From: Candidatus Saccharimonadota bacterium | Lineage (GTDB): Bacteria > Patescibacteriota > Saccharimonadia > Saccharimonadales > Saccharimonadaceae | Reading direction: 5' to 3' | NCBI GenBank assembly: GCA_009785325.1 | Contig: WQWN01000002.1 | Coordinates: 62,001 to 126,000, forward strand | DNA length: 64,000 nucleotides | Shown here: one piece after another, positions 15,848-18,448 of the stretch | How positions within the stretch are numbered: position 1 is the first letter of the stretch | How the letters are laid out: the number at the start of each line of letters is the position of its first letter | Notes under the pieces: generated by a model | What the model saw: the letters and a program-made list of their open reading frames with translations, nothing else | What the model was told of the DNA's origin: nothing | Database searches by the model: none | Made by a program: the position numbers and the translations under genes

Positions 15848-16879
15848 ATGATAAAACTTGGGATCGATGAAGTGGGGCGCGGGGTGTGGGCAGGTCCGTT
15901 GGTCGTGGGGGCGGTGGTGCTGGGTGACGTGAAAATTGATGGACTGGCGGATAGTAAAGTATTGACGGCGAGACGAAGGGAGGAGTTGAGTGAGGTGATA
16001 TGGGAGGAGGCGGCGAGTGTGGGGTTGGGCTGGGTAAGTGCTAGTGAAGTGGATGAGGTCGGATTGAGCGAGGCTCTGAGGCTGGCGACGAGGCGGGCTG
16101 TGGAAGAGATTGATGCGACTTATCATGAGATTGTGATTGATGGGACGGTGAATTTTCTCAGAGGGACGAAACTGGAGAAATATGTGACGTGCTTGAGGAG
16201 GGCAGACCAGTCGATTGCGGCAGTGAGTGCAGCGGCGATCGTGGCGAAAGTGGCGAGGGATAGGTATATGTGTGGGGTGGCGGAGAAGTTTCCGGGTTAT
16301 GGGTTTGAGAGAAATGTGGGGTATGGGACGCGTGGGCATCGAGAGGCTTTGGTGGGGTTGGGGGTTTGTGAGGAGCATAGGAGGAGTGTGAGGCCGGTGA
16401 GGGAGATCATTGATGGCAGTTCCCAGCTTGATAATTCTGCGACACGCTCCTCGAGCCTGTCGTCACAGGTCTCGCGTACTAATTCCTCGCCGTCCTGCGG
16501 GGTTGCCGCAGAATCATCAAACGGAAAACCGCAGTCAATATTACCTTTGACGAAAGAGATAGGGGATAGGGCGGAAGGAGTGGTGTGTGAGTATTTACTC
16601 GGGCTGGGGTATGAAGTGGTGGCGAGGAATTGGCGGACGCGGTGGTGCGAGATTGATGTGGTGGCGGAGTTGGACGGGGTGAGGTACTTTGTGGAAGTGA
16701 AATATAGAAAGAGTACTGAGTGTGGCGGCGGGCTAGGGGCGATTACAGCAGAGAAACTGGAGCGAATGGGGCGGGCGGCGGAGATGTATATAGATAGGGA
16801 GGGTTTTAAGGGAGAGGTGCGGCTGGCGGTGGGAGTGGTGGAGGGAGATTTTGAAGTTGTGGATTTTATTGTGTTGTAG
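15848..16879 (+). CDS. rnhB: Ribonuclease HII fused to a YraN/UPF0102 endonuclease-like domain
   Basis: 343 residues in two domains. Residues 1-185 are RNase HII, which removes RNA from RNA-DNA hybrids: GIDEVGRGVWAGPLVVGAVV carries the catalytic Asp-Glu pair and GRG motif, EIVIDGTVNFL the third Asp, and AAVSAAAIVAKVARDR the fourth. Residues about 235-343 are a YraN (UPF0102) domain of the PD-(D/E)xK type: EIDVVAELDG and YFVEVKYRK hold the Asp, Glu and Lys. rnhB and yraN are neighbours in many bacteria; here they are one chain. The linker (about 188-235) is Ser-rich, C-rich in DNA and unlike the flanks. Leaderless start. Confidence 0.9.
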   Translation: MIKLGIDEVGRGVWAGPLVVGAVVLGDVKIDGLADSKVLTARRREELSEVIWEEAASVGLGWVSASEVDEVGLSEALRLATRRAVEEIDATYHEIVIDGTVNFLRGTKLEKYVTCLRRADQSIAAVSAAAIVAKVARDRYMCGVAEKFPGYGFERNVGYGTRGHREALVGLGVCEEHRRSVRPVREIIDGSSQLDNSATRSSSLSSQVSRTNSSPSCGVAAESSNGKPQSILPLTKEIGDRAEGVVCEYLLGLGYEVVARNWRTRWCEIDVVAELDGVRYFVEVKYRKSTECGGGLGAITAEKLERMGRAAEMYIDREGFKGEVRLAVGVVEGDFEVVDFIVL

Positions 16880-16924: not shown

Positions 16925-17383
16925 AGGTGTGTAAGATCGCGGAGGCGATAGAACGTTAATTTTGTTAGATTTTTCGATAAAGTTGTGAGGCAGAGTCGTG
17001 GACATGGTGAAAGTGTCTAGGATCCTGCTTCACGACGCTATCACGACGGCGACGTGCAGGGAATCTTCATACGGAGGAGGTTTTCAGAGAATGTTCTTAG
17101 GAATACAGGCACTTGCTCCACATTTTTTTCTGGTTCAGGAAATATGTGATACAGCAAGTGTGTCGGGATGCTCGGGTGAAATTTTGCCCAGTAGTCCCGA
17201 AGGAGGGGTGTCGAGTCGAGTAGTTCCGTATACCCGAGGCTTGACAGCCAGACCGGACACTTGACTTAGGCGTACTAGTAGCGTAGGCCTGCAGGCTGCG
17301 TACTGGTGCGCGGAAACCAGCACAACCCATTCCTGCCGGTTTTTCCGGCACATACTATGCGACAAACTCAACGACGCAATAAT

Positions 17384-17405
17384 CAATGATCGTACAATGA
17401 TCGTA
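17384..17405 (+). repeat. 11-bp tandem duplication
   Basis: CAATGATCGTA occurs twice back to back (17384-17394, 17395-17405) inside the large RNA. Confidence 0.85.
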
Positions 17406-17600
17406 GGTAGTGTGGACTACTCTCATCCGGAGTGGTAGGGAGTAACCTGGCAAGTCGTGACGCCGTAGTTTAGGCTCTCTTAAACGCTATATCCAGTAGT
17501 GAGGCGAGAAGCCTAAGGCGGAAAGTATCTAACCAACCCGAGAGCGACCGTTAGGTCTTTATGCGCATTTCACCGCTCCTAGCGGTCGCTCACAACACAA

Positions 17601-17630
17601 GGCGGCACATTAAAGTGCCGCCGTTTTTTT
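17601..17630 (+). terminator. Terminator of the large RNA
   Basis: GGCGGCAC (17601-17608), loop ATTAAA, GTGCCGCC (17615-17622), then G and seven T. Confidence 0.9.
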
Positions 17631-17680: not shown

Positions 17681-18448
17681 TCAGTTGAAGGAGGGGGCGT
17701 ATTCGAGGACGCGCTGATCAGGGCAGGACTGGAGGACGCGGTATTTGGCGTCGTGCTCGGCTTGGGTGACCCAGAGATTATGTTTGAATTTGACGGAAAT
17801 TTGACGGGCGACGAACTGGCAGCGAAAGGGGCGGTGTGGTGGAAGCCAAGAGGCGGCGTCGGAGTCGCCTTTTTGCATGTTGGCGGGGCCGTCGACAGCG
17901 AGGAGGTTAAGGGGGTCGTTTGAAAAGGCGATGCGCTGCTCGCGGGTGAGGTTTTGAGCGCCTTTTTGCCAGGCGTCAGAGAGGGCGACAACGTGGTCGA
18001 TGTGGACTTCGTTACTTGTTTCGGGTCCACGGATGAAGTTGATGATTTGATCTGTGTAGGGGCAGTGGAGAGTACCGGAAAGAACGAGGCAGCCGTCGAG
18101 GACGACGTCGGTGAGGTCGCGGTAGAGGATGACGTTTCTGGCATCGCAGCCGTTGATGTTACCCCAACCGGAACCAAATTCGGAGCGGGAGTAGCCTGTG
18201 CGTGGAGCGCGGCCTTTGATTTCTAGGCGAGAGAGTATCTCGGTGGCGAGGGGGAGGTCGCTGGAGTCGCCGTGGGTGGCGGGTGTGATAGTGGTGTGTT
18301 GTTGATCGTCTGTGGGGGCGGGTTCGTAACTGTTGGGGTCGGTGAGGATGAGTGCGGCAGCGGCGCCCATGAAGACGAGGAGGGCGAGGAGTTGGCGGAG
18401 TTTGTGCTTAGGGGATTTGTTTTTGCGGGGTTTTCTGTTGGGATTCAT
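17681..18448 (-). CDS. Secreted/membrane-anchored HNH nuclease (DUF1524 type)
   Basis: 255 residues. A basic N-terminus (KPRKNKSPKHK) and one hydrophobic helix (LLALLVFMGAAAALIL, about 20-35) form an export signal or anchor. The catalytic domain matches the actinobacterial extracellular HNH (DUF1524) nucleases: GSGWGNINGCDARNVILYRD, VHIDHVVALSDAWQKGA with the HNH His-Asp-His, NDPLNLLAVDGPANMQKGD and SDAASWLPP. It probably degrades DNA outside the membrane, for nutrient scavenging or DNA uptake. The ATG at 18448 comes six bases after TATAAT (complement of 18455-18460), preceded by TG-G. It is divergent from pepN. Transfer from or to an actinobacterial host is plausible but not shown. Confidence 0.85.
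   Translation of the reverse strand: MNPNRKPRKNKSPKHKLRQLLALLVFMGAAAALILTDPNSYEPAPTDDQQHTTITPATHGDSSDLPLATEILSRLEIKGRAPRTGYSRSEFGSGWGNINGCDARNVILYRDLTDVVLDGCLVLSGTLHCPYTDQIINFIRGPETSNEVHIDHVVALSDAWQKGAQNLTREQRIAFSNDPLNLLAVDGPANMQKGDSDAASWLPPHRPFRCQFVARQISVKFKHNLWVTQAEHDAKYRVLQSCPDQRVLEYAPSFN

Follow-up and report, generated by a model that had tools for sequence, protein, structure and literature searches.

The segment that joins the two halves of an rnhB-yraN fusion gene in this bacterium is a copy of a hairpin-forming insertion element. This element is dispersed, carries no gene of its own and is found in one family of Saccharibacteria. Overall, we consider the best explanation of the observations, with a probability of roughly 0.75, to be that such elements are scattered through these genomes, mostly reside in frame within protein-coding genes, and usually bear stems whose sequence is particular to each copy. 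Saccharibacteria are tiny bacteria with small genomes that live on other bacteria. The stretch of DNA analysed here (the window) comprises 64,000 nt, corresponding to positions 62,001-126,000 on the forward strand of contig WQWN01000002.1 of assembly GCA_009785325.1.

The host gene is a single ORF on the plus strand (15848-16879, 343 aa) that spans RnhB and YraN without interruption. Pfam assigns RNase_HII (PF01351) to residues 4-182 of the protein and UPF0102 (PF02021) to residues 242-316. An earlier interpretation made from the letters of the window (the sequence-only reading) had marked 16411-16555 as DNA whose composition is opposite to that of its surroundings, and the GC skew agrees, being -0.09 at 16400-16549 versus about +0.45 to +0.72 on both sides. 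Its remark that the minus strand has no stops through the segment is likewise correct, as this strand is open there within a stop-free stretch of 239 codons. The palindrome as measured extends from 16409 to 16539; neither the palindrome nor the repetition of the segment elsewhere in the genome had been mentioned. Beyond the host gene, the region at 16998-17630 lacks the strong GC skew of its neighbours and ends in a terminator-like hairpin followed by a run of T residues. This region is perhaps a structured RNA; it gave no Rfam family at gathering score and no tmRNA by ARAGORN. The minus-strand ORF at 17681-18448 (255 aa) may encode a secreted HNH-type nuclease.

The element at 16409-16539 was delimited by its inverted repeat, its fold and a covariance-model match. 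Its structured strand, which we term E+, is the minus strand in the window and is therefore antisense to the gene. In the E+ orientation, a 36 nt 5′ arm (16504-16539) and a 36 nt 3′ arm (16409-16444) that are 75% complementary enclose a conserved head of 59 nt (16445-16503). The head is predicted to form two hairpins, of which hairpin A lies at about 16485-16502 and hairpin B (CCTGT-GACG-ACAGG) at about 16456-16469. When folded as RNA, the minus strand reaches -64.9 kcal/mol (z -5.2), a value equalled by none of 200 shuffles, and the fold of the plus strand is weaker (z -2.6). The covariance-model match (16422-16524, 81.8 bits, E 6.9e-19) is the only one in the window up to E 10. An Rfam scan of the window returned only a tRNA and no family for the element, and a scan of the element copies gave three matches, all below gathering scores. 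If translated, the element would encode residues 188-231 of the fusion protein, a stretch that is predicted to be disordered. AlphaFold gives pLDDT values below 50 at residues 191-232, with folded domains on both sides, in the best of five models (mean pLDDT 52 to 79 among them) built on an alignment of seven sequences.

A search for the segment elsewhere in the genome had been proposed in the sequence-only reading, and BLAST, pattern and model searches of the 678 kb available (the assembly is 76% complete) revealed three further copies, giving four in total. All three are in frame inside ORFs, which encode ValS, an O-antigen-ligase-like protein and an APH-family phosphotransferase-like protein. 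The copy in valS is antisense, as in the window, and the other two are sense. The four copies have about 60 nt of head in common and differ in the sequences of their arms, yet the arms pair within each copy; this pairing is clear in the window, valS and C3 copies and partly decayed in C1. Between the window and valS copies, for example, the heads are identical at 0.93 of positions and the arms at 0.23, so that the window's 5′ arm is specific to this copy. The reverse-strand peptide QDGEELVRETCDDRLEERV, which had been taken for a convincing stretch of soluble protein, is one frame in which host ORFs carry other copies, for instance as KDGERVSDEPRNDGREERR-like stretches. The earlier view, in which a small piece of foreign DNA with copies elsewhere had been inserted in reverse, is thus borne out by a palindromic element whose structured strand is antisense; the part of that view which had the insertion cause the gene fusion did not survive, as described below. 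A fifth BLAST match in this genome (C5, E 0.10) and a fifth model match (E 2.98) were taken as chance.

To define how widely the element occurs, we used two covariance models. The first, built from three copies, clearly matched 9 of 61 genomes, every one of them from the same family, which contributes 37 of the 61; matches in G002 and G040 (E about 0.45-0.56) were dropped, as was copy L077 (15.1 bits). The second, built from 61 copies, was applied with a cut of E <= 0.01, which probably lets in a few false matches, and matched 208 of 394 family genomes, representing 16 of 61 genera. At E <= 0.001 it matched 6 of 379 genomes from the phylum, all within the same family. Two genomes that were scored in full, G204 and G346, hold 16 and 14 copies respectively. 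Named relatives of the fusion protein come mostly from Candidatus Saccharibacteria and in one case from Candidatus Nanosynbacter, and the stretches fetched for 22 of their named loci contained the element in none. Pairs of copies in opposite orientation, some 20-140 nt apart, were observed at several places (L073, L233 and L243; G132:C2 at 155280/155523 and 62477/62640; G091:C4 at 277740/277981).

Two-sided changes are seen at every modelled base pair of the element. In alignments fitted to the model, and hence biased towards it, two-sided changes occur at all 32 predicted pairs among 61 copies and at all 33 pairs among 88 rows (83 distinct) from the second model; in the latter, 86.7% of cells pair compared with 60.8% in shuffles, and the covariation score is 0.642 compared with 0.167 when shuffled and at most 0.114 with slid partners. 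Stems are roughly 16 to 45 bp long; three rows of the stem survey gave no stem and three gave only a stub (the first L169 row, L151 and L168). As judged by eye, a single base bulges from the 3′ arm of many stems roughly 12 nt away from the head, and in many cases there is a second bulge on the 5′ arm, lying farther out by about 5-8 bp. At paired positions of the E+ strand, G-T combinations exceed A-C combinations (142:76 and 139:78), compared with ratios near 1:1 in shuffles (214:187 and 281:286). Because of this excess, E+ is likely the strand that folds, either as RNA or as single-stranded DNA, with the proviso that the model was built on the E+ strand and may favour it.

Copies of the element reside in frame within genes far more often than expected by chance. 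A copy was considered to be in a gene if one open frame continued for at least 40 codons upstream and 25 codons downstream of it, and the chance expectation was calculated from the number of stop-free frames and random phase. Among 126 copies, which are the best-scoring and first-fetched rather than a random sample and are not all independent insertions (LepA of G005 and of G027, for example, share one site), 88 are in frame inside long ORFs versus about 20 expected. The two sets that make up this number gave 42 of 61 and 46 of 65, with about 10 expected in each; the second set counts 65 of the 88 rows and omits 23 that are same-place repeats, LeuS-locus rows or second rows of a locus. Hosts recognised by profile matches include ValS, TopA, PcrA, LepA, PheT (two copies), a Clp ATPase, UvrA and RecG, as well as QueA, RNase J, an amidase and an alanyl-type synthetase domain. 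All six frames and both orientations are represented among the in-gene copies, and therefore the head cannot be conserved for the sake of one peptide. We infer that the insert would be translated as a tolerated, disordered loop, and that selection removed copies that broke a reading frame.

The orientation of the in-gene copies is biased, in that 63 of 88 are sense and so place E+ in the mRNA, whereas 25 are antisense (p 6e-5 if the copies are independent), and the number of open frames does not account for this excess. The bias would suit an element that acts at the RNA level, such as an intron, a spacer excised by RNase III or a translational bypass element, whose insert is missing from the finished protein. 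The strong covarying structure, the excess of G-T over A-C on the E+ strand and the conservation of the element relative to its flanks (see below) are also compatible with this possibility. However, an element that is removed has no need of an open frame, and thus the many open frames count against removal, as do the antisense copies and the lack of an Rfam family at gathering score. We therefore consider an RNA-level element to be quite improbable.

The location of the element exactly between the RnhB and YraN domains is what would be expected if its insertion had created the fusion. Nevertheless, 25 of the 28 family genomes that were aligned, including that of the window, carry the fusion, and the inter-domain stretch, as measured between fixed motifs, is shorter than the 76 aa of the window protein in 22 of the 24 other fused genomes. 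The two longer linkers are those of G015 and of G019, which holds its own weaker copy (21.8 bits) in the opposite orientation. Six named Saccharibacteria relatives are also fused, five of them with a clearly shorter linker. The fusion was found in neither of the two genomes of other families in the aligned set; in G045, which belongs to another family, both domain matches lie in one open frame of 412 codons. Since the fusion is widespread and its linkers are mostly shorter, the insert arrived later, into an existing linker. On this comparison of sequences RnhB and YraN were already joined before the insertion took place, and the proposal that the insertion made the fusion can be set aside almost entirely.

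Empty sites are found for other copies as well. Of the 28 relatives shown for ValS, 27 have an empty site at the position of the insert (the ValS of G020 was filtered from this comparison), and the 28th carries an unrelated long insert. A long His/Ser-rich insert lies in the valS gene of G011 (L125), at the site where the genome of the window has the hairpin element. Between the sister species G204 and G346 there are two clean pairs of filled and empty sites (L255/L291 and L261/L290). By eye, hardly any arm sequence is recognisable in the empty site of either pair, and there is no clear target-site duplication between flanks that are only 84-96% identical. Seven of the 12 unshared copies in these genomes could be aligned to the other species, with one region running off its contig and four not located; judged by eye, two of the seven sites are empty, four hold a different hairpin and one is diverged with no evident hairpin. 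A second palindrome family, GACGGGTGNCG ... CAGGACCCGTC, was noted at L288:4063-4147, L289:6417-6496 and L248:1051-1135. In L288 and L289 it occupies sites that hold the studied element in the sister species, as if both palindrome families shared hotspots.

Among copies with like heads the stems usually differ. Heads reach an identity of 90% or more in 73 same-genome pairs of copies; in 65 of these pairs the arm identity is 0.70 or less, and the median for all 73 is 0.48. The TopA and QueA copies of G029, for example, have identical heads on differing stems of 29 and 31 columns. The remaining eight pairs share more of their stems, and two share them completely at different places of one genome (ValS and RNase J in G024; C4 and C6 in G260), so that an insertion does not in every case bring a new stem. 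Two copies in G076 are 94% alike over 105 nt and then continue into different outer arms, each of which is self-complementary. In G096, G005 and G027, similar sequence recurs by eye at the outer edges of the element.

The sister species also permit copies to be followed in place. G204 and G346 are 93.5% identical at leuS, and seven of the nine shared sites examined hold nearly unchanged, inherited copies (L262/L271, L264/L257, L268/L273, L272/L267, L274/L269, L279/L280 and L283/L282). In these seven, 25 of 1043 element sites differ versus 256 of 4048 sites in the 300 nt flanks, and therefore rapid drift of stems in place is not seen. The greater stability of the element than of its flanks is unexpected for a tolerated insert. 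Candidate causes would be conversion or selection that acts on the structure where it sits, and copies, once inserted, seem to be retained instead of drifting freely. At the other two shared sites, the arms are related and the head is of another subtype (L260/L265), or arms and head both differ (L270/L263). The ideas that the arms are target-site duplications or are fast-evolving were considered, and neither held between G204 and G346.

An indication of where stem sequence might come from is provided by LeuS, whose loop GAEIxF...VFTTR is an insertion hotspot. The set of 36 loops divides into 18 long and 18 short ones; loops that did not fit the motif were left out (G251, G286 and G349 from this set, G305 and G286 from an earlier one). 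A strong inverted repeat is present in 14 of the 18 long loops, compared with none of the 18 short loops; when the codons of the long loops were shuffled, 8 of 1800 sequences had one. The left arm extends into the GAEIxF codons in 13 of the 14 repeat-bearing loops, as placed by a local alignment whose ends may include chance matches. The LeuS gene of G292 has 16 nt, nine of which are in the conserved GAEIEF codons, that recur exactly inverted just before the native ITVFTTR, and in G315 it is the native flank on the right that the arm enters. A short inverted repeat (GACTTT...AAAGTC) is found in some LeuS sites that are still native, and thus part of the arm match may reflect target preference. 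Part of the LeuS stem looks like an inverted copy of the target flank. At one further locus (L190, leuS of G373) the stem is present and most of the head is gone, apparently following the same insertion as in G294.

The patterns in LeuS and G076 would fit fold-back copying of a flank at the time of insertion. We infer, at about even odds, that on insertion the head and some of the inner stem would be copied from a donor. The outer stem would often arise at the target, where one flank would be copied by folding back (a template switch), whereby most copies would gain a stem of their own, and the head would be conserved as the part that moves or is recognised. Stems made at the target have about even odds as well. 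The arms are mostly new sequence at the two clean empty sites, which argues against this origin, and its pure form is contradicted by the pairs that share more of their stems and by the recurring outer edges. In full, the proposed mechanism is that of a mobile hairpin with a conserved head that acquires a new stem at each target through fold-back copying of the flank there, preserves the reading frame, has neither terminal repeats nor a dedicated transposase, and is afterwards kept at the nucleotide level. We put this forward tentatively, as somewhat less than an even bet.

A different account of one head with many stems is that old stems evolve through compensatory changes and gene conversion homogenises the heads, with no stem being made at insertion. 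The massive two-sided change at base pairs is in keeping with this account, as are the recurring outer edges and the two of nine shared sites at which the element differs between G204 and G346, one of them in head subtype. Yet the seven other shared elements changed less than their flanks, arms included, stems extend into conserved LeuS codons, and the G076 copies differ in complementary outer arms next to 105 nt of near identity. For these reasons we regard homogenised heads on old stems as doubtful.

As a small dispersed palindrome without genes, the element also resembles an ordinary MITE or REPIN that is moved in trans, for example by a Y1 transposase of the IS200/RAYT type that reads hairpins. 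The corresponding family, PF01797, which was the only transposase family searched, is matched in 4 of 9 clear carriers (G005, G019, G020 and G029) and in 4 of 28 other family genomes. It is unmatched in the other five carriers, which include G001 and G033 (stated to be 100% and 97% complete), the window genome, G024 and G027 being only 76-83% complete; no mobilising enzyme was found by this search. The arms, moreover, are mostly not shared terminal repeats, given that stems are shared more in only 8 of 73 pairs and that edges recur only in G096, G005 and G027. Movement of this conventional kind is unlikely.

If translated, the element would add a foreign loop of some 30-45 codons to tRNA synthetases, topoisomerase, helicases, a Clp ATPase and translation factors. 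Annotation would take such a loop for ordinary protein, and 208 of the 394 genomes searched carry the element. The copies offer a wealth of natural experiments on where essential enzymes accept an insert in their loops. In addition, the combination of one head with many stems makes the long-standing question of how protein-coding palindromes move testable by comparison of sister species.

No earlier report of such elements in Patescibacteria was among the matches listed by title and start of abstract, in a search that most subscription papers lie outside, and the literature searched contained no paper that combines 'palindromic element' with 'Saccharibacteria'. Among known systems, REP and REPIN sequences are short hairpins dispersed in bacterial genomes, and REPs are mostly extragenic with conserved ends. 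The element described here is likewise a short dispersed hairpin, but it is mostly intragenic and has variable stems, and PF01797 was not found in five of its nine clear carriers. In Magnusiomyces mitochondria, palindromes interrupt protein genes and, according to PMC6649704, are left untranslated through bypassing. Protein genes are interrupted by palindromes in both cases, whereas the frame is open through most of the elements studied here.

The same paper describes inverted repeats inside functional coding sequence of mitochondrial genes of Nematomorpha, both arms of which encode conserved residues; its authors consider that the arms may be kept perfect by template switching or repeat conversion, and set these perfect coding palindromes against Rickettsia palindromic elements (PMC6649704). 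In contrast to the nematomorph palindromes, a conserved head is dispersed here, and in the LeuS cases only one of the two arms looks new, the other having the look of native sequence.

Rickettsia palindromic elements, which were reportedly described by Ogata et al. in 2000 and 2002, have a stem sequence that is common to the copies of one family. They resemble the present element in being dispersed palindromes of about 100-150 bp, with several copies per genome, many of which lie in frame in unrelated protein genes. The present element differs in belonging to another phylum, in its conserved two-hairpin head, in its use of all six frames and in stems that are mostly not common to its copies. 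A review (PMC10969869) gives a length of about 150 bp and ten families for the Rickettsia elements, with nearly half of the copies in ORFs. Compared by description rather than by sequence, the Saccharibacteria element works like a Rickettsia palindromic element, and it shows that in-frame palindromic elements occur beyond Rickettsiales too, in bacteria with small genomes and a life on other cells.
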